The notes under the pieces: model-generated
Told to the model about the DNA's origin: nothing
The model's input: only the letters and a program-made list of their open reading frames with translations
Databases searched by the model: none
Translations under genes and position numbers: made by a program
Part shown: positions 3,261 through 13,545 of the stretch, piece by piece
Layout of the letters: the number at the start of each line of letters is the position of its first letter
Numbering within the stretch: the first letter of the stretch is position 1
Assembly (NCBI GenBank): GCA_019694575.1
Contig: JAIBBR010000024.1
Location: forward strand, 1 to 47,131
Source: Myxococcaceae bacterium
Lineage (GTDB): Bacteria > Myxococcota > Myxococcia > Myxococcales > Myxococcaceae
Length of the DNA: 47,131 nt
Direction of reading: 5' to 3'

Positions 3261-5249
3261 TTAGAAACGCGGCCGTTCCATTTTGAATGGCTGGTGAACC
3301 AGCTTCATCGCCTCGTTCGCTTCGACCGGTTTCGAGAAGTAATAGCCTTGCACGTATTCACAGCCGAGCTCCTTCAAGAGCTCCAACTGCTCGTACGTCT
3401 CGACACACTCGGCGATGACGTCCATGCCTAAATTTTTCGCCAACACCACGATGGTGCGCACCAGTTCAGCGTTCTTGTTGCCCGGCTCCAATTTGCGCAC
3501 GAAGGAGCCGTCGATTTTCAAAACATCGATGGGAAATTGGTGCAGGTACGAAAGCGACGAGTAGCCAGTGCCGAAATCGTCGAGCAAGAGCCCCACGCCC
3601 AAGCGTTTGAGCTCCTTCAGCGTCTCAGCCGCGCGCTCTGGCTGTTCAATCACCGCGCTCTCGGTGATTTCGAGCTTCAAATGGCTCAACGTGAGGCCCG
3701 TTTCACGGCCAATGCGAACAATGTCTTCGACGATGTTGGGCGCTGAAAGCTGCCGCGTCGACAAGTTCACCGTCACCGACATTGACTGCGGCAACCCAGC
3801 CTTTCGCCATTGCTGCAATTGGCGGCAGCCTTCTTCAATCACCCAGGCACCGATTTCGACAATCAGCCCCGTCTCTTCAGCCACGGGTATGAACTTGGCC
3901 GGCGGCACCAAGCCCATTTCGGGGTGCTGCCAGCGCACCAAGGCCTCGAAATCGACGACCTGCGCCGTCTTCAGCGACACCACCGGCTGGTAGTGCAGGC
4001 GCAGCTCTTGTCGCGTCACCACTTGGCGCAAGTTGCTCTCTAATTCCAAGCGCGAGCGGGCCCGGGCCTGCATTTCACGGTCGAACACCTGGTGGCGGGC
4101 TTTGCCCTGCTCCTTCGCGCGGTACATCGCAATGTCGGCGTCACGCAGCATGTCGCCCGGCTTTTCGTAACGGGCGTCGTGGTAGGCGATACCGATGCTC
4201 ACCGTGGCGAACACTTTTTGCGCTCCCAGCATGAACGGTGCGCCAAGCGCGGTGTTGACGTGCTGAGCCACGCGCATCGCGTCGCTCACGTCACGCAGGC
4301 CTTCGACCAAAATGCCGAACTCGTCGCCTCCCAAACGCGCCAAGGTGTCACTGCGGCGAACCGCGGTACCGAGCCGCGCCGCCACTTCGCGCAAGAGCCC
4401 ATCACCGGCCTGGTGGCCCAAGCTGTCGTTCACCACCTTGAAACGGTCGAGGTCTAAACAGAGCACCGCGAACGGCGCCTTTTTGTGACGGGCCGCCATT
4501 TCGAAAACATGCTCGAGGCGGTTCAAAAACAACGCCCGGTTCGGCAGGCCGGTGAGCGGGTCGTGAAACGCGTCGTCGAGGAGCTTGGCTTTGGCGCGCT
4601 CGCGTTCAACCACCCGCCCGAGCTGAACACCCACGTCGGCCATCAACGAAAGCACGCTTGCGTCAGGTTCGGTGGCGTCGGCGAAGAAGAATTCGGCCAC
4701 CGCGACGACCACGTTGCCCGCCACCACGGGAAAAGCAAACCCCACGCGCACGCCGCTTTCGACGGCCGACGCAAAACGCGGGACATTCGCGTCAACCGCG
4801 ACGTCGACTACCCACAACGGTTTGCCTTCGCTGAAGCAACGGCCCGGCAAGCCCACGCCTGGCGCCAGCGGAGTGTTTTCAGTCAGGGTGCGAAACGCGT
4901 CGAAGCGGGCTTCGTCGTCGAGGTGCCAAATGCCGGTGGGGCACAAGTGGCCGGTACGGGTGGGAATGTACATGTGGCCAATGGGCCAGTGCATGTGCGT
5001 GCACACCAGGTCGAGCACGGTCTGAAACGCTTGATCGATATTGAGCGCTTCATTCGACGCCGACGCCACCCGCTGCAGCAACAACAGCGCTTGGTGCTTT
5101 TGATACAGGTCGGCCGCCGACTGCTTGGCAATCGCTTCGGCGTCAAGGCGGGCCTGGTGCTCGCGCGCCAAACGCTCCTCGAGCTTGCGCACGGTGTCGG
5201 CCGTCTTGCTGTCGTTCGTGGTCACGTCGCTACCGGCCGAAGCTCGCAT
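3261..5249 (-). CDS. GAF-GGDEF-EAL cyclic-di-GMP signalling protein
   Basis: Cytoplasmic 662-residue protein expected to make and/or degrade cyclic-di-GMP. The order is a coiled-coil N-terminus (about 16-60), a GAF-type sensor domain (about 60-215), a GGDEF domain (about 225-390) and an EAL domain (about 400-650). GGDEF is intact at 307-311, and RRSD at 298-301 fits the RxxD inhibitory site five residues before it. The EAL domain has EAL at 435, VNLSTRQ, EITE at 527-530, DDFGTG at 557-562, VLKID and AECVET, where the family usually has AEGVET. Both activities look possible. No signal peptide or membrane segment is present. The start is ATG 5249; a GTG eight codons in would also fit. It is divergent from manA, with about 97 bp between the starts. 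Confidence 0.93.
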   Translation of the reverse strand: MRASAGSDVTTNDSKTADTVRKLEERLAREHQARLDAEAIAKQSAADLYQKHQALLLLQRVASASNEALNIDQAFQTVLDLVCTHMHWPIGHMYIPTRTGHLCPTGIWHLDDEARFDAFRTLTENTPLAPGVGLPGRCFSEGKPLWVVDVAVDANVPRFASAVESGVRVGFAFPVVAGNVVVAVAEFFFADATEPDASVLSLMADVGVQLGRVVERERAKAKLLDDAFHDPLTGLPNRALFLNRLEHVFEMAARHKKAPFAVLCLDLDRFKVVNDSLGHQAGDGLLREVAARLGTAVRRSDTLARLGGDEFGILVEGLRDVSDAMRVAQHVNTALGAPFMLGAQKVFATVSIGIAYHDARYEKPGDMLRDADIAMYRAKEQGKARHQVFDREMQARARSRLELESNLRQVVTRQELRLHYQPVVSLKTAQVVDFEALVRWQHPEMGLVPPAKFIPVAEETGLIVEIGAWVIEEGCRQLQQWRKAGLPQSMSVTVNLSTRQLSAPNIVEDIVRIGRETGLTLSHLKLEITESAVIEQPERAAETLKELKRLGVGLLLDDFGTGYSSLSYLHQFPIDVLKIDGSFVRKLEPGNKNAELVRTIVVLAKNLGMDVIAECVETYEQLELLKELGCEYVQGYYFSKPVEANEAMKLVHQPFKMERPRF

Positions 5250-6528: not shown

Positions 6529-6550
6529 AAAACGGTCTACGGTGCTCCGC

Positions 6551-7939
6551 ATGGACAGTTGGAGCGCTTTTCGCAGTGCGCTTGAGGCGCAGCTGCCCGC
6601 CGATACATGCTCGACCGATGCCGATGACCTCGCCACCTACGGCCGCGACTGGACGCGTGTCTTCGCTCCCGCGCCGAAACTCTTGGTTCGGCCTCGCACG
6701 ACAGCCGAAGTGTCGACGGTGATGCAGCTGGCCACGGCGCACAAGGTAGCGGTGGTTCCCTCTGGTGGACGCACCGGCTTGGCCGGCGGTGCCGTCGCGG
6801 CGAAAGGCGAAGTGGTGCTCTCGTTCGAGCGCATGCGGGCGATAGGGCCCATTGATGCGCTGGGCCTTTCGGTCGTGGTGCAGGCCGGAGCGGTGACAGA
6901 AGCCGTGCACCGCCACTGCGCTGAGGCCGGTTTGTTTTGGCCGGTCGATTTCGCATCGAAGGGCTCTTCACAAGTGGGCGGCAACATCGCTACCAATGCC
7001 GGTGGCGTGCGGGTGATTCGTTACGGGCTCACCCGGCAATGGGTGCTGGGGTTAGAAGTCGTGTTGCCCAGCGGTGAAGTGCTGCAGCTCAACGGCGCGC
7101 TCGAGAAGAACAACACCGGCGTCGACTTGCGGCAGCTGTTCATCGGCAGCGAGGGCATTTTGGGTCTCATCACCCAGGCCACGCTGAAATTGACGCGGCT
7201 GCCGGGCAAAACCGACGTCTTTCTCTTCGCGGTCGACAATTTAAAGGCGGTGCTGAAGCTCTTTTCCACTGCGCGAAAAGGGCCATTCACCCTTTCGGCT
7301 TACGAGTTCTTCACTGACAAATGCACCGCGCGGCTCGAAAAGCATCGCGGCTTGCGGCCCCCGTTCGAGGCAGCCTCATCGCACTATGTGTTGATGGAGG
7401 TCGAAGCAGCCGACGCGGGCGCGCTTGACCCGTGGCTGCAGAAGCTCTTTGAAGACGGGCTGGTGCGCGACGGCACCCTGGCGCAAAGTGAAGAGCAGGC
7501 GAGAGGTCTCTGGGCGCTGCGTGAAGGCATCAGCGAGAGCCTGTCGGCGACGGGGCTGCCGCACAAGAACGACATTGCCTTGCCCATTGAAGCGCTGGGC
7601 GCGTTTTGCACGGAGTTGGACTCAGTGTTTTCTACCCGTTACCCCGGTTGGGAAATTTGCCTCTTCGGGCACATCGGCGACGGGAATTTGCACGTCAACG
7701 TGATGAAGCCCGAGCAGCTGACGAAAGAAGCGTTCTGGGAAAAAACGCACGAGGCCGATGAGCAGCTGTTTTCGCTGGTGAAGAAGTACCACGGCAGCAT
7801 CAGCGCGGAGCACGGCATTGGGTTGTTGAAGAAACCGTTTCTTCACTACTCGCGCAGTGACACTGAGCTGGCTTTGATGCGGGCGTTGAAAGCGGCGTTT
7901 GACCCCCTGGGCATTTTGAACCCCGGCAAGGTGCTGTGA
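6551..7939 (+). CDS. FAD-linked 2-hydroxyacid dehydrogenase (GlcD / D-2-hydroxyglutarate or D-lactate type)
   Basis: Flavoenzyme of 462 residues oxidising a D-2-hydroxyacid to the 2-oxoacid. The FAD_binding_4 domain has VPSGGRTGLAGGA near residue 70 and SQVGGNIATNAGGVRVIRYG near residue 140. The C-terminal domain has GHIGDGNLHVNV (about 373) and SAEHGIG (about 418), with the family ending GILNPGKVL. Sequence alone does not separate D-lactate, glycolate and D-2-hydroxyglutarate as substrate. The gene lies 4.4 kb from serA, whose enzyme can release D-2-hydroxyglutarate; that link is inference. The start is ATG 6551; an upstream extension would overlap manA. Its last 22 bases belong to the 126-bp repeat that recurs at 10824. 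Confidence 0.88.
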   Translation: MDSWSAFRSALEAQLPADTCSTDADDLATYGRDWTRVFAPAPKLLVRPRTTAEVSTVMQLATAHKVAVVPSGGRTGLAGGAVAAKGEVVLSFERMRAIGPIDALGLSVVVQAGAVTEAVHRHCAEAGLFWPVDFASKGSSQVGGNIATNAGGVRVIRYGLTRQWVLGLEVVLPSGEVLQLNGALEKNNTGVDLRQLFIGSEGILGLITQATLKLTRLPGKTDVFLFAVDNLKAVLKLFSTARKGPFTLSAYEFFTDKCTARLEKHRGLRPPFEAASSHYVLMEVEAADAGALDPWLQKLFEDGLVRDGTLAQSEEQARGLWALREGISESLSATGLPHKNDIALPIEALGAFCTELDSVFSTRYPGWEICLFGHIGDGNLHVNVMKPEQLTKEAFWEKTHEADEQLFSLVKKYHGSISAEHGIGLLKKPFLHYSRSDTELALMRALKAAFDPLGILNPGKVL

Positions 7940-8043
7940 CGAGGGTGCAGGTATCAAGGGCGATGCGAAGCAGCGGCATCGGAGCTCTTGGGCTCTGAAC
8001 GAATGAAAACCGCCGACAGCATCACGCTGTTGGGCACCACGAT
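7918..8043. repeat. 126-bp direct repeat, left copy of the islet boundary
   Basis: This stretch matches 10824-10949 with three mismatches, all between 7942 and 7949. It carries the last 22 bases of the FAD dehydrogenase gene, the short gap and the last 90 bases of a mscS-like gene. Identity stops sharply at both ends. Confidence 0.95.
7954..8043 (-). pseudogene. 3' fragment of the MscS-like channel gene
   Basis: This piece is the C-terminal end (VVPNSVMLSAVFIRS onward) of the MscS-like gene whose intact copy ends at 10860. It belongs to the left copy of the 126-bp repeat, and the homology stops at 8043. It has no start of its own and is most simply a remnant of the duplication that accompanied insertion of the islet. 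Confidence 0.85.
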
Positions 8044-8164
8044 GCCAATGGCGTAATTTTCGGGGGGAAGGTCAGGGCGACTGCAAGTCGGCGTCCAAGC
8101 TCGCGGCGTGAACACGCTTCGTCAGCTCAGCCGCTGTCGCGGCCCTTCGTTGAGTTGCGCTGTT

Positions 8165-8521
8165 TCAGTAAGAAAGGTTTGACGCTCTCGATGTCAGCAG
8201 ATCCTTGGCGACGGCTACCTTTATCCTTTGGATCTTCGAGCACTTGCCCTCGTACTTCGCCAGCTCCTCGCGTGCTGACAGAACTTGGCCTTCACCTCGC
8301 GGCACTTCAACGATCACAACCTCGTCTGCGGAGGCAAGAACGGTATAGATGTCCTCGGCCTGCTCGGGAACCCAGTTGAGGACATAAGCACCAGTGACTT
8401 TCACATTCACAGACTCAAGAGCGTTCGCCAATCGGCCATGGCTGCCGTCCTGCAGCGCGAGATTCGAGCGAACCAACTCCTCGCGCAGCTGCTGTTCCGT
8501 GCGGCTTCCAATCAGCTTCAT
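8165..8521 (-). CDS. Uncharacterised 118-residue protein
   Basis: I do not recognise this gene. From ATG 8521 it reads MKLIGSRTEQQLREELVRS, then a segment with YVLNWVPEQAEDIYTVLAS and EVVIVEVPRG, and a Lys-rich C-terminus. It is compact, with no signal peptide or membrane segment, and looks like a small soluble alpha/beta protein. Size and setting (an islet with toxin-antitoxin-like genes) would suit an immunity or antitoxin protein, but that is a guess. The frame is open upstream to 8659, but that extension overlaps an HTH-like remnant on the other strand, so the ATG at 8521 is preferred. Confidence 0.55.
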   Translation of the reverse strand: MKLIGSRTEQQLREELVRSNLALQDGSHGRLANALESVNVKVTGAYVLNWVPEQAEDIYTVLASADEVVIVEVPRGEGQVLSAREELAKYEGKCSKIQRIKVAVAKDLLTSRASNLSY

Positions 8522-8563
8522 TCGAGCAATCCCTGGCCGGCCGAAGGGCCGCTTAGTTTGTAA

Positions 8564-8680
8564 CTGTTCAGCGGGCGAATCGACATCGGGAAGCTGCCCC
8601 ACCTGCGCATCGTGAACAGCATTCGCATTCGGTCGGAGGACCTCGAACTGCTCCTCCACGAAGTGAAGACCTTACCCTGA
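8564..8680 (+). pseudogene. Remnant of an HTH_17 / excisionase-type DNA-binding domain
   Basis: A frame that opens right after TAA at 8561 and ends at TGA 8680 encodes about 38 residues, including SGRIDIGKLPHLRIVNSIRI and RSEDLELLL. This resembles the second half of the helix-turn-helix_17 domain (the sGxlPxxrIgrxxRIpredLexxL pattern) found in excisionases and MerR-like small regulators. The N-terminal recognition part and a start codon are missing, so it is treated as a fragment. A chance resemblance cannot be excluded. Confidence 0.35.
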
Positions 8681-8700
8681 GATCTAGCGGTTAGGCGATA

Positions 8701-8961
8701 TCACAGTGCGTGCGATTGGGTCTCAAGCTGCTTGCGAAGCTTCTGGTGAATGGCATCAGGGGCAAGGTCGGCGCCGGTTGGCCAACATGGGACACCGAAT
8801 TGGTCGAGGCTCACCTGCTTGAAGAGCGACTCGTCACGCAGCGGCGCGAACACCGGGCCGAAGAGCCGATCAGCAAGGTCAATGACCCCCGCTACGCCAT
8901 CGGAGAACTCCACGTAGAGTCGATACCCCGACCGTGGTTCTACTTTTGTCGCTCGCGTCAT
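8701..8961 (-). CDS. DUF2442 family protein
   Basis: Small 86-residue protein with the DUF2442 pattern: an N-terminal strand (YRLYVEFSDGVAGVIDL), then LFGPVFAPLRDESLFKQVSLD and the family-typical WPTGADLAPDAI near the C-terminus. DUF2442 genes are often found directly beside DUF4160 genes, as here, and such pairs have been suspected to be toxin-antitoxin-like; no function is established from this sequence. The ATG at 8961 lies three bases after the DUF4160 stop, so the two are co-transcribed. Confidence 0.75.
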   Translation of the reverse strand: MTRATKVEPRSGYRLYVEFSDGVAGVIDLADRLFGPVFAPLRDESLFKQVSLDQFGVPCWPTGADLAPDAIHQKLRKQLETQSHAL

Positions 8962-8964
8962 CGG

Positions 8965-9186
8965 TCACTCCAGTGGGTCAATCGAAAGCAATGGCTGATG
9001 CTCAGCTGCTCGTTCCCAGTCGGCTCGAAGTTCATCTCGGTGCTCGACGGCCCACTCAACTGCAAGCGCCAAGACCCGTTTAGGCAATGAACCACCGATG
9101 ACATCGAGGCTCTCGATGGAAATCTGGGCACGGTGGTCGCCGTAGTAGGCGTGGAAATGAGCAGGCGCATGATCGTCGCAGTACAT
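8965..9186 (-). CDS. DUF4160 family protein, N-terminus short or frameshifted
   Basis: The 73 residues begin MYCDDHAPAHFHAYYGDH, the hallmark of DUF4160 (MYxxDHxPPHFHAxYG), and end with LSIDPLE, also typical. Family members usually carry about 10-15 residues before this motif (ending in a stretch like IRIxMY). Here the frame is closed by TAA a few codons upstream, while a neighbouring frame encodes MTWGKRMKIRG just before it. Either initiation is at ATG 9186, which has CGAGG close upstream, or a one-base shift has separated the N-terminus. It is the first gene of the pair with DUF2442. Confidence 0.65.
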   Translation of the reverse strand: MYCDDHAPAHFHAYYGDHRAQISIESLDVIGGSLPKRVLALAVEWAVEHRDELRADWERAAEHQPLLSIDPLE

Positions 9187-9436
9187 GAACCTCGAATTTT
9201 CATTCTCTTACCCCATGTCATTGGCGCTCACTTACACCGGCGCGGCCCCGCTCAGCGGCCACGAGGTTCGAGACGTTCTTGACGGTCACTGCAGGGGTGC
9301 TTTCGGTCTTCGCGCACCAGCCCTCACTGTTGCCCAGCCCGGCTTTGCAGTTTGAAATTCCACATCTTTCAGCACGAGGCAGGACTGGCTCGGGTCTCTT
9401 TGGCGTGCTGACGTCCCGATGCGACCTTTGGTTCGG

Positions 9437-10315
9437 CTAAAAGCCACCCTGCGCGCGCTCCCCGGTGAGCCAGACTTCTCGACTGGGCGGGGAAAGCCCG
9501 CCGTCGGGGGTCAGCCCCCACCACCGCCCCCACGCTGGTCGAGCGCGATCCCAGTACTCCTGCTCGGTCGTGGCCCGAATGGCGTCGTTACTGCTGCGCA
9601 TGGCGTTGACAAGATCACTGCCAAAGTCGTCCACGTCCTCCTCGAAGAGCAGGCACGGCACGGCATCGATTTGGCGATCCCAGCCGGCGAGCACCGCCGC
9701 CGCGTGATTGCTGAGCGTAGCGCCGGTGGAATAGTCGCCATGCCATTCGGTGAGACGCGTCATGTCGGCGCGCTTCTGCTCGACGAGCGGCCGCAGGTGC
9801 CTCGCTGCGCGCCAGTGAATCAACCGCAGCGCTTCGGCCTGCGCGACGGGGTTACCCCCTGCGAGTGCTTCGGTGGCGGCGGCGAGCGCGAAGCCTCCAA
9901 GCTCGTGCAGGCCCGCCGGCGGGTGATCGTTCACCACCTTGGCACTCGCGAGCTCGGCGAAGCGCGCGCGACCCTCGTTCACCTCTGCCTCTCCCAACTT
10001 TGCCAGGGCGCGATACCCGCTCACGTCACCCCATTTCAGCGAGCGCCGAAGCGCCATCTCGAGCCAAGCCTTCACCCGGCGTCTCGTCTCTTCGTCTCCT
10101 TTGCTCGCGCGCAGCTCCATTTCTGGGAGCAGCTCGGCGCCACGATGGCTCGCATGAACCACAGCCTCACGCCACACCGCGGTGCGCGGGTCGTCGAAGC
10201 CAAGCTCGATTCCCGGTCGCGGCTCCACACCGTTTTTTGAGCACGCAATCATCGATAGGGCGACAACAGAGATGGCTCCAGCGATCACTTGAGCCACGAC
10301 CGTCAATCGGTTCAT
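9437..10315 (-). CDS. Putative lipoprotein of unknown function
   Basis: I do not recognise the family. From ATG 10315 the 292-residue product starts MNRLTVVAQVIAGAISVVALSMIAC. This is a lipoprotein-type signal peptide with Cys after a hydrophobic core, although Met at -3 makes the lipobox imperfect. The mature part is helical, Ala/Glu/Arg-rich, with segments such as RRRVKAWLEMALRRSLKWGD and AEALRLIHWRAARHLRPLVE that could form helical (Sel1/TPR-like) repeats, and a Trp-rich C-terminus. A start at 10351 would put twelve extra residues before the signal peptide. It is the largest gene of the islet. Confidence 0.55.
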   Translation of the reverse strand: MNRLTVVAQVIAGAISVVALSMIACSKNGVEPRPGIELGFDDPRTAVWREAVVHASHRGAELLPEMELRASKGDEETRRRVKAWLEMALRRSLKWGDVSGYRALAKLGEAEVNEGRARFAELASAKVVNDHPPAGLHELGGFALAAATEALAGGNPVAQAEALRLIHWRAARHLRPLVEQKRADMTRLTEWHGDYSTGATLSNHAAAVLAGWDRQIDAVPCLLFEEDVDDFGSDLVNAMRSSNDAIRATTEQEYWDRARPAWGRWWGLTPDGGLSPPSREVWLTGERAQGGF

Positions 10316-10405
10316 GCCCAAATCTTCTCCGACATCGAAGGGCACCGACATCGGTTGATCGACCGATGTTCCCGAGTTCTGCGCGACTGACCGGCAACGC
10401 GCTGC

Positions 10406-10621
10406 TCACACCGCTTTTTTCAACCTGCGACCCTTGGTTTTCAACCAAGTGAGGTGGACCCACTCGGCGGTTGCGATCTTCCTGCTGATGTATGCGCCGA
10501 GTTCCCAGGAGTGCCCGACAAGCACGGTGTTCACCGCCTGGTACCCACGGGCGCGAGCCTTCTCGATGAGCGCAATGACCTCCGCGAAGCGCTCGTCCGC
10601 TCCCGCGAGCATCTGTTTCAC
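10406..10621 (-). pseudogene. Truncated DUF1016 (YhcG-like) gene, N-terminal piece
   Basis: The 71-residue frame contains FAEVIALIEKARARGYQAVN followed by TVLVGHSWELGAYISRKIATAEW. This is the N-terminal DNA-binding part of DUF1016/YhcG proteins (consensus like AVNxELVxLYWxIGxYISxKIxxxEWG). The resemblance stops abruptly after EW; the rest (Lys/Arg-rich, then TGA) is unrelated, and the PDDEXK nuclease part is absent. A 7-bp perfect inverted repeat with a 3-base loop (10433-10449) sits near the break. YhcG-type nucleases occur in defence and mobile regions. The gene is a remnant. Confidence 0.65.
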
Positions 10622-10823
10622 CGCTGCAACACCGTTAGCTCCTCGATGTCGTCGGGTGGCGAAAAGATTCTCAACACGGTGATGGTTCAGTTGACGAACC
10701 CTTAAAGGCTTTCTCTGAACTGCATTGGTTTACATTCAGCGCGTTGACGTTTTTTTGTTCTGTGCGCCATGCAGGGTTCGACGGCCAAGCGGCTTTACGA
10801 AGTCAGGGCGAAGAATGGGTAAA

Positions 10824-10949
10824 GAACCCCGGCAAGGTGCTGTGACGCAGGTGCGGGTATCAAGGGCGATGCGAAGCAGCGGCATCGGAGCTCTTGGGCT
10901 CTGAACGAATGAAAACCGCCGACAGCATCACGCTGTTGGGCACCACGAT
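10824..10949. repeat. 126-bp direct repeat, right copy of the islet boundary
   Basis: Partner of 7918-8043, with three mismatches. Here the bases matching the end of the FAD dehydrogenase gene are not attached to that gene, whereas the mscS-like part continues into the intact gene. The arrangement is that of a long target duplication around an insert, or of recombination between short homologies. Confidence 0.95.
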
Positions 10950-11429
10950 TGAGCCACCGTTGGCGGCCTCGAGCCGCGTGTACCCAAGCGTGAATTGTTT
11001 CACCGTGCCCGTCTGAGGTACTCCCGAAGGCAAATAGACGGTGAGCACCTGGTCCAGCTCAAACGGTCGATAGAGCAGAATCGCGATGCCGGCGATGAGC
11101 TGCCCGAGCGTGTTCTGGGCAGCGAGACCGACGACCAACGAAATGACGCCCGCGCTCGCCAGCAGTGCGCCACCCAGCTGTCTCAGCGCCGGCACCACGT
11201 GCGAATAGAGAATAGCGGCCATGAGAAATGCGCCGATGCGCAACAACTGGGCAATGAAAGTCGCCGAAGTTCGGTTGACAAACAGCGTGGGGCGACTGGC
11301 AACGTGATGACTCCAGACGCCCACCAGGCGGGCCGCGAGCATCGCCATGAAGAGAAAGACCAAACCGTAGGCGAGCGCTCCCGGTGTTGTCGCGGGGTTC
11401 AAAAGGTCGTGACCAAGCGAGTCGAACAT
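10860..11429 (-). CDS. Short MscS-family mechanosensitive channel protein
   Basis: Inner-membrane protein of 189 residues with a minimal MscS core. Three hydrophobic segments (about 20-36, 62-80, 87-120) are present, the last being the pore helix region (SAGVISLVVGLAAQNTLGQL). A shortened beta domain follows (GTVKQFTLGYTRLEAANGGS, IVVPNSVML). The large C-terminal vestibule of E. coli MscS (286 residues in all) is missing, so it ends soon after the beta domain. Likely role: pressure-relief or ion channel. The last 90 bases lie in the right copy of the 126-bp repeat. mscL follows 2.2 kb further on. Confidence 0.8.
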   Translation of the reverse strand: MFDSLGHDLLNPATTPGALAYGLVFLFMAMLAARLVGVWSHHVASRPTLFVNRTSATFIAQLLRIGAFLMAAILYSHVVPALRQLGGALLASAGVISLVVGLAAQNTLGQLIAGIAILLYRPFELDQVLTVYLPSGVPQTGTVKQFTLGYTRLEAANGGSIVVPNSVMLSAVFIRSEPKSSDAAASHRP

Positions 11430-11471
11430 CTCACTCCACAGCTAAACACGACCGCGAGCGGGCCTCACCAT

Positions 11472-12252
11472 TTACCGCTTCACTGCCCGGCAGTTGAGGC
11501 GCACGTAGTCGAGCGTCCACGGAGCGCCACCCGCTCCCGCTCGCTGCACCACGTCATCGAGAAATGCTTGCCGCTCATCTTCGGGCAGCGCAAGCAAATG
11601 GTGACGCAACACCACGTTAGAAACGAAGACCCGAAAATCTTCGGCACTGACGAATGGGGTCGGGGCCGGGGTGAGCGACAATTCCGTCACTTCAAAACCA
11701 TTCTGCGTTAAGTGCCCGCGCGTCGAATCGAGCGAGGCAAAGTTCCACCCGGGCTCGAAAGCCGACGAAATATTCACTCCACCGCGCCGAACGGGTGACG
11801 TCGCCCACCAGCCCCAAGAAGCGGTGGAGATTGCCCTCACCTCCCCACTGCGCGTGCAACCGGCCGCCGGTTTTCAGCGCCCGCGCCAATGACGTGAAGA
11901 GCGCCGCGTGGTCAGCCACCCAATGAAAAGTCGCGGTGCTGAAAACGACGTCGACTGGCTCACCCAATGCGAGCGCCTGCGCTTCGGCGTGAACAAGCGA
12001 CACCCGCGTGCCAAAACGTTTCAACTCACGGGCCGCCACGTCGAGCATGGGCTGTGAAGTGTCGACCCCCATCACCTGCCCCCTCGGCAACCGCTCAGCC
12101 AACAACGCCGTCAGCCGCCCGCTGCCGCAGCCCACGTCGAGCACCGCTTCGTCGCCTTCGAGCGGCAACGCGGCGAGCACTTTCTTTCCCCATTGCCACG
12201 CAGGCTCTGACACCCGGTGGTAAATCTCTGCGTTCCAGTCGGGCTGAGCCAT
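11472..12252 (-). pseudogene. SAM-dependent methyltransferase (Tam-like), interrupted by a frameshift
   Basis: Class I methyltransferase resembling trans-aconitate methyltransferases. The first frame (from ATG 12252) has LDVGCGSGRLTALLAERLP, VMGVDTSQPML and VVFSTATFHWVADHAAL. It then loses homology and runs to a stop at 11692. The second frame carries the expected rest: EPGWNFASLDSTRGHL, then FRVFVSNVVLRHHLLALPE, ending at 11472. The frames join at about 11755-11760, where one extra base (ttt-c-gag on the coding strand) accounts for the break. The joined product would be about 260 residues, the normal length. It is divergent from serA. Either a recent inactivation or a sequencing indel. Confidence 0.8.
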
Positions 12253-12336
12253 GCGCGGCTTCAATCTTTACCCCCCTGCGATACTGATGTCAGCTGGGCC
12301 TTGACTAAGCCAGCCATCGCGGTACGCGTCGCGCAC

Positions 12337-13545
12337 ATGGCAGCGCCACTCAAAGTACTTCTGCTCGAAAACATTCATGCCTTGGCCGAAGAAATGCTGA
12401 AAAAGCATGGCTTCGAAGTCATTCGCGCCGACGGAGCGCTCAAAGAAGACGAGCTCATCAAAAAGCTCGCCGGCGTGCAGTTGCTCGGCATTCGCAGCAA
12501 AACCCACGTCACCCCGCGCGTGCTTGAAGCGGCTCCCGACTTGCTCGGTATTGGCGCCTTCTGCATTGGCACCAACCAAATCGCGCTTCACGCGGCGATG
12601 AAGCGCGGCGTCTGCGTGTTCAACGCCCCCTTCAGCAACACCCGCAGCGTGGCCGAGTTGATTATGGCCGAAGTCATCATGCTCTCGCGCCAGTTGGGCG
12701 ACCGGGTGATGGAAATGCACCAAGGCAGCTGGCGTAAAGTCGCCGCCGGCTCTCACGAAGTGCGCGGCAAAACCCTCGGCGTGGTGGGTTACGGCCACAT
12801 CGGCAGCCAAGTCGGCATTCTCGCCGAGTTCTTCGGCATGCGCGTTTTGTACTTCGACACCGCCGCCAAGTTGCCGCTGAGCAACAACGCCAGTTGCCCC
12901 AACTTAGAAACGCTGCTCACGAATTCAGACTTCGTCACCCTGCATGTGCCCGAAACACCGCAGACCAAGGGCCTCATCGGCGCCGCGCAGCTTGCGCAAA
13001 TGAAGAAGGGGGCATGCCTCATCAACGCCAGCCGCGGCACGGTGGTCGACTTGGCCGCGCTTGCGCACGTACTCGGCAATGGCCAACTGGGAGGCGCCGC
13101 CATCGACGTCTTTCCCGACGAGCCCGACGCCAACTCGAGTGAAGGCTTCAAGACAGAATTGCAGGGTTTGAAGAATGTGCTGCTCACTCCGCACATCGGT
13201 GGCTCGACGCTCGAAGCCCAAGAGGCCATTGGCCGCGAAGTCGCCTCGAGCTTGATTGCTTTCGGTACCGCCGGCGCTTCGGTGGGCAGCGTAAATTTCC
13301 CCTCGGTAGAGTTGGCGGCCACCCCCGGCACTTACCGGGTGGTGCACGTGCACCAAAACGTGCCTGGCGTATTGCGCGACGTGAACCGCATCGTGTCGGA
13401 AGAAAACGGCAATATTCACGCGCAAGTCCTTTCGACCAACGCCGATATCGGCTACCTGGTCATGGACTTGGACTCCAACGTCAGCCAGAGGGTATGCGAC
13501 GCAATGAAGCGAGTGCCCACCACCATTCACGCGCGGGCACTTTAA
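12337..13545 (+). CDS. serA: D-3-phosphoglycerate dehydrogenase with ACT domain
   Basis: First enzyme of serine synthesis, oxidising 3-phosphoglycerate with NAD. The 402 residues match the E. coli-type SerA (about 410). Substrate-binding lobe halves surround the NAD domain. Visible features: VVGYGHIGSQVG (dinucleotide motif), INASRGTVVD (catalytic Arg), DVFPDEPD, and TPHIGGSTLEAQEAIG (catalytic His). The C-terminal ACT domain begins near HVHQNVPGVLRDVNRIV, pointing to serine feedback control. The ATG at 12337 gives MAAPLKVLLLENIH, matching the family start; the frame is open 40 codons upstream without homology. Confidence 0.94.
   Translation: MAAPLKVLLLENIHALAEEMLKKHGFEVIRADGALKEDELIKKLAGVQLLGIRSKTHVTPRVLEAAPDLLGIGAFCIGTNQIALHAAMKRGVCVFNAPFSNTRSVAELIMAEVIMLSRQLGDRVMEMHQGSWRKVAAGSHEVRGKTLGVVGYGHIGSQVGILAEFFGMRVLYFDTAAKLPLSNNASCPNLETLLTNSDFVTLHVPETPQTKGLIGAAQLAQMKKGACLINASRGTVVDLAALAHVLGNGQLGGAAIDVFPDEPDANSSEGFKTELQGLKNVLLTPHIGGSTLEAQEAIGREVASSLIAFGTAGASVGSVNFPSVELAATPGTYRVVHVHQNVPGVLRDVNRIVSEENGNIHAQVLSTNADIGYLVMDLDSNVSQRVCDAMKRVPTTIHARAL

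Follow-up and report, generated by a model that had tools for sequence, protein, structure and literature searches.

A predicted toxin-antitoxin islet between long direct repeats of the ends of two convergent genes, and seven similar islets in the same Myxococcaceae genome

Integrative elements of the CIME type, which have no integrase of their own, are islets between direct repeats at the 3' ends of genes. Insertion with long target duplication has been described, from strain comparison, for restriction-modification genes of Helicobacter (Nobusato et al. 2000, Gene 259:99, as presented in PMC1643837 and PMC3874152), whereas homology-facilitated illegitimate recombination (PMC2884548, PMC5361080), with displacement of gene ends, has been proposed for the type VI effector-immunity arrays of Vibrio, in a context where rhs genes are discussed too (PMC5361080). 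How chromosomal toxin-antitoxin genes move and are retained without mobile-element machinery is an open question, and the full-text searches made in the open literature yielded no report of such genes moving with long target duplications. The locus described here is an islet with a predicted toxin-antitoxin pair that lies between 126-bp direct repeats in the window, that is, the complete contig C32 (47 kb) from a genome of the Myxococcaceae type that comprises 5.28 Mb in 220 contigs. Its outline is as follows.

7918..8043, + strand: left repeat copy, with the true end of a FAD-linked dehydrogenase gene (22 bp), a 14-bp gap and a dead 90-bp piece of the 3' end of an mscS-like gene
8044..10823: insert of 2,780 bp, with 60.6% G+C compared with 62.3% for the window
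10824..10949, + strand: right repeat copy, with a dead FAD-gene end (22-bp orphan), the 14-bp gap and the true mscS 3' end

The two copies are in direct orientation, align without gaps over 126 bp and are 97.6% identical, with three mismatches (7942, 7943 and 7949) and a longest identical run of 94 bp. These are exactly the positions and the mismatch count of the original prediction, and the stop codons at 7939 and 10860 agree with its reading of the left copy as the true FAD end joined to a dead mscS piece and of the right copy as the reverse. The pair is the sole direct repeat of at least 35 bp at 85% identity within the window (E = 3.6e-59), the genome contains no third copy, and the left and right flanks outside the repeats are unrelated to each other.

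The arrangement recurs in the same bacterium. Altogether, 1.85 Mb (35%) of the genome was covered, namely the window and 1.81 Mb of sequence slices (L-numbers below; C-numbers denote contigs of the same genome), and the slices were scanned for isolated direct repeats and for copies of gene ends nearby (C-terminal echo scan). Seven further islets were found, each flanked by 46-67-bp direct repeats of the 3' end of the neighbouring gene, after repeats in L225, L226, L176 and L264 had been set aside as repeats, paralogue-like or low-information.

L237, 65-bp repeat: downstream of a vWA gene; cargo, a nucleotidyltransferase
L163, 66-bp repeat: downstream of a Band7-SHOCT gene; cargo, a PIN/VapC-type toxin
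L234, 58/60-bp repeat: NUDIX-like gene; cargo, a ParE-like toxin with an Unstab_antitox antitoxin (the toxin and the NUDIX-like protein were named by eye, and neither has a Pfam hit)
L229, 67/65-bp repeat: downstream of mutM; cargo, HipAB
L243 (51 bp), L134 (53 bp) and L160 (46 bp): non-toxin or unknown cargo

The anatomy of these sister islets is uniform: after a gene with an intact 3' end comes the cargo, and beyond it the same 3' end again as a dead copy, always in direct orientation, with no inverted repeat among the seven. The isolated hits of the echo scan are likewise all on the same strand (7 events, including one FabF-like possible paralogue and one antisense frame of glpK), with none on the opposite strand and one N-terminal; the 926 control genes gave a single, low-complexity hit. 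The control, 1.2 Mb from other genomes subjected to the same scans, is not a matched sample, so that no claim is made that this genome is special. It contains one comparable case, in the isolate Archangium violaceum Cb vi76 (L082:1070-4041), where a Tox-REase-5/Imm52 toxin-immunity pair lies between 125-bp copies of a gene end and four of the six differences between the copies are synonymous.

Cargo of the toxin-antitoxin type is present in four of the seven sister islets and, with the window islet, in five of eight, an enrichment with P between 3e-7 and 3e-4 for an assumed background of 60-250 modules per genome, of which only PIN (17) and ParE (4) were actually counted. The repeats are longer in all five toxin-antitoxin islets than in the three others (one-sided P 0.018, small sample). 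Because at least seven similar islets occur elsewhere in this bacterium, the locus looks like a case of recurring, homology-anchored acquisition of toxin-antitoxin genes rather than a lone oddity. The proposal of an accessory islet at this site, devoid of a recombinase and framed by long direct repeats of the ends of two converging genes, is supported.

Three arrangements are related but are not 3'-end cases and were not accepted as islets of the same type. A 44-bp piece from within gltX recurs in the same orientation 4.7 kb away, next to a vapBC pair (L148:3023-3780 and 8464-8507); the start region of glpK forms a 67-bp direct repeat that encloses genes for a putative lipoprotein and an O-antigen ligase (L193:524-590 and 3566-3632); and a PIN-toxin gene pair has next to it part of the 5' end of a gene for 304 aa (L197:5046-5859 and 7130-7188).

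Two classical routes of insertion can be set aside. The open reading frames (ORFs) of the insert, compared with Pfam, PADLOC and NCBIfam, match no integrase and no transposase, as the reading of the letters had suggested. A transposon with target-site duplication was rejected on this ground and also because the repeats measure 126 bp compared with the usual 2-14 bp and the strongest inverted repeats of the region are unrelated to the insert ends; integrase-driven, site-specific integration was rejected given the lack of an integrase in the insert, the presence of the repeat only twice in the genome and the unrelated sequences of the sister repeats.

In all seven sister islets, the edge of the repeat falls between -12 and +2 nucleotides from a stop codon (P about 3e-4 if placement were uniform). 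Four of the ungapped coding pairs contain differences, and 12 of these 14 are synonymous (L163, 2 of 2; L237, 2 of 2; L134, 4 of 5; L160, 4 of 5), one of these being a swap of the stop codons TAA and TGA, and the dead L134 copy, examined by eye in the alignment, keeps a stop codon of its own after two differing residues (GEN* vs GNE*). The gapped pairs, L229 and L234, contain frameshifts, as a dead copy would later acquire. Taken together, the sister copies fit two alleles that would have diverged while still functional, although the numbers are small and a mixed null may also account for them. In the window, all three mismatches fall inside the 14-bp intergenic gap between the two stop codons, with none in the 112 coding bases, a clustering with P of about 0.001; with the adjacent pair taken as a single event, P is 0.012.

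Duplication of the target upon insertion predicts random decay and repeat edges anywhere, so that the position of the sister edges at stop codons and the mostly synonymous differences make a plain insertion duplication doubtful. Accordingly, of the original notion of a target duplication, the long direct repeats of target sequence stand, but their creation at insertion is in doubt. For the window islet alone, a true long target duplication is nonetheless a serious rival because the repeat here spans two gene ends regardless of the stop codons. Under this scenario, the cargo would be captured at a break or a nick pair ∼50-130 bp apart and single-strand fill-in would duplicate the target; the Ku gene present in the genome and the 100% identity of the L243 copies speak for it, but the clustered edges, the synonymous differences and the separate stop codon of the dead L134 copy are not what it predicts, and as the origin of the repeats, it appears tenable but rather doubtful. 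The islets resemble the Helicobacter cases, as these are portrayed in the accounts cited above, in the small, recombinase-free insert, the direct repeats of target sequence of variable length, from tens to ∼100 bp (126 bp here, 46-67 bp at the seven other sites), and the addiction-type cargo. They differ from the cases so portrayed in carrying toxin-antitoxin genes, in belonging to a myxobacterial genome with several sites, and in repeat copies that end at stop codons and have the look of alleles that diverged.

The scenario towards which we lean, by a narrow balance, is acquisition of the islet by homology-anchored, one-sided recombination with the DNA of a relative, rather than by a transposase or an integrase. 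A related strain would supply DNA in which the toxin-antitoxin cargo comes after an allele of the local gene end; pairing of that gene end with the resident copy would provide the anchor, whereas the far end, which lacks homology, would be joined by an illegitimate event immediately upstream of the resident gene end, for which Ku-dependent end joining is one candidate. The local gene would then stay intact with a tail from the donor, and its former tail would be left beyond the cargo as a dead direct repeat. The geometry of the window islet and the allele-like differences in its sisters are compatible with such a one-sided homologous anchor. Under it, a one-sided homology anchor, a non-homologous far end and the downstream displacement of the resident 3' end would be shared with the proposal for the Vibrio arrays (PMC5361080), as is the toxin-related cargo; unlike in those arrays, the anchors here would be unrelated genes of the housekeeping type that stay intact, with a displaced piece of no more than 46-126 bp.

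Several observations weigh against one-sided recombination. The synonymous excess rests on 14 substitutions and, if both copies changed, P for the excess at third positions is no better than about 0.01 to 0.12, according to which null is used. The repeat of the window breaks the stop-codon rule, extending 104 bp past the FAD stop and 36 bp past the mscS stop, and its three differing sites are too few to decide the matter alone. The narrow range of repeat lengths (46-126 bp) is not predicted by one-sided recombination unless longer, unstable repeats are selected against. Finally, neither an empty site nor a donor allele was found in a search that covered relatives outside the genus, which are too distant or lack synteny: in 80 FAD loci of other genomes, the FAD gene lies near serA and never near mscS, and in the empty-site search for the L237 islet, the vWA and amidotransferase genes are not neighbours in any of 86 family genomes.

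The geometry of repeat, cargo and repeat is also exactly that expected from a Campbell-type single crossover with a circle that carries one repeat copy and the cargo, possibly excised from another strain between its own repeats, which would make the islet an integrase-less cis-mobilizable element; tyrosine integrases are encoded elsewhere in the genome. However, each islet is associated with a different gene and a different repeat sequence, so that there is no shared att site, repeats of 46-67 bp offer little homology for a crossover, and we know of no circular form, all of which makes this route improbable. The islets resemble CIME-type elements in lying between direct repeats at gene 3' ends without an integrase, but they have no attachment sequence in common.

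An artefact in which a metagenome-type draft assembly chained the alleles of two strains appears highly improbable. Although the assembly is a draft in 220 contigs and a strain mixture could yield differing alleles, many contig ends share an overlap of exactly 127 bp, an indication of de Bruijn assembly at k=127. The joins should then be carried by reads because the window repeat is identical over at most 94 bp at a time, short of that length, and, judging from the overlaps, joins through exact repeats shorter than 127 bp are probably real and read-supported. Besides, the slices contain no N runs except for one masked contig (L238), the repeat lengths vary, and the isolate A. violaceum has the same arrangement. 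At one contig end, an inverted overlap of 127 bp without a mismatch (L204:1-127 and 8862-8988) most likely reflects a k-mer effect of the assembly.

Recombination between the repeat copies could delete an islet, and its loss in this way is plausible; toxin-antitoxin addiction may slow the loss and, by selection against it, would enrich such cargo. A broader generalization, which we consider unlikely on current evidence, is that in this lineage, toxin-antitoxin modules spread and persist mainly as gene-3'-end islets acquired by one-sided homologous recombination, with the repeats making each islet deletable and addiction retaining it, hence the enrichment of toxin-antitoxin cargo and the tolerance of longer repeats. 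Many insertions of differing apparent age, each with a dead copy of a gene end, form a natural set for tests, in which repeat pairs could separate the donor allele from the resident one, and the deletable geometry offers a test of whether addiction stabilizes the islets.

The insert contains the following genes and remnants, all on the minus strand except for the unoriented 66-bp stretch.

8165..8659, - strand: ORF of 164 aa without an assigned family (nothing above the Pfam cut-off, nothing in PADLOC or NCBIfam)
8701..8961, - strand: DhiA-like antitoxin, DUF2442 (PF10387, 1.7e-12; NCBIfam DhiA, 1.5e-5, below cut-off)
8965..9186, - strand: DhiT-like toxin, DUF4160 (PF13711, 3e-17; NCBIfam DhiT, 2.6e-15, below cut-off)
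9262..9293, - strand: remnant of 32 bp from the beginning of an AbiEii toxin gene, with 97% identity to the AbiEi/AbiEii junction of contig C151
9289..9354: 66-bp stretch, 85% identical to contig C80
9437..10351, - strand: ORF of 304 aa with a lipoprotein-like start and no family in Pfam, PADLOC or NCBIfam
10406..10621, - strand: truncated YhcG/DUF1016 nuclease of 71 aa (PF17761, 8.7e-5, below cut-off; PADLOC PDC-S02, 3e-15)

The expectation of toxin-antitoxin or defence genes accompanied by remnants is borne out by the DhiT/DhiA-like pair, the truncated YhcG and the AbiEii remnant. The pair is intact, with adjacent genes, the toxin gene upstream of the antitoxin gene, and is predicted from its domains to be a dhiTA-like toxin-antitoxin pair. 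In Dickeya dadantii, dhiTA has been shown experimentally to be a type II toxin-antitoxin system, with the same succession of a DUF4160 toxin gene and a DUF2442 antitoxin gene (PMC8198452), whereas the pair in the window scores below the NCBIfam DhiT and DhiA cut-offs. A second, damaged DUF4160/DUF2442 copy is found on contig C201 (L123:14914-15116), in pieces that are 85-92% identical, with 50 bp missing. Intact relatives of the truncated YhcG nuclease are ∼400 aa long, and the fragment is 84% identical at the DNA level to an intact one in genome G019. An IS91-like origin of the 66-bp match to C80, an idea that came from reading the letters, was dropped.

The two genes whose ends form the repeats converge on the islet.

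6530..7939, + strand: FAD-linked oxidase/dehydrogenase gene, whose 3' end opens the left repeat (PF02913, 2e-51; PF01565, 5e-36)
10860..11429, - strand: mscS-like channel gene of 189 aa, without the usual MscS C-terminal domain (PF00924, 8e-7)

The mscS end that the repeat contains may be the product of an old truncation because the NCBIfam MscS model aligns over residues 36-176 of 286 and all the homologues found are longer. The surroundings differ from those in related genomes as well: in most of the relatives among 80 FAD neighbourhoods, the FAD gene converges on serA, whereas here serA (12217-13545) is on the plus strand and is separated from the FAD gene by mscS and a methyltransferase gene (region 6530-13545). 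This difference in strand and gene order suggests that the locus has also been rearranged, with a putative inversion adjoining the islet.
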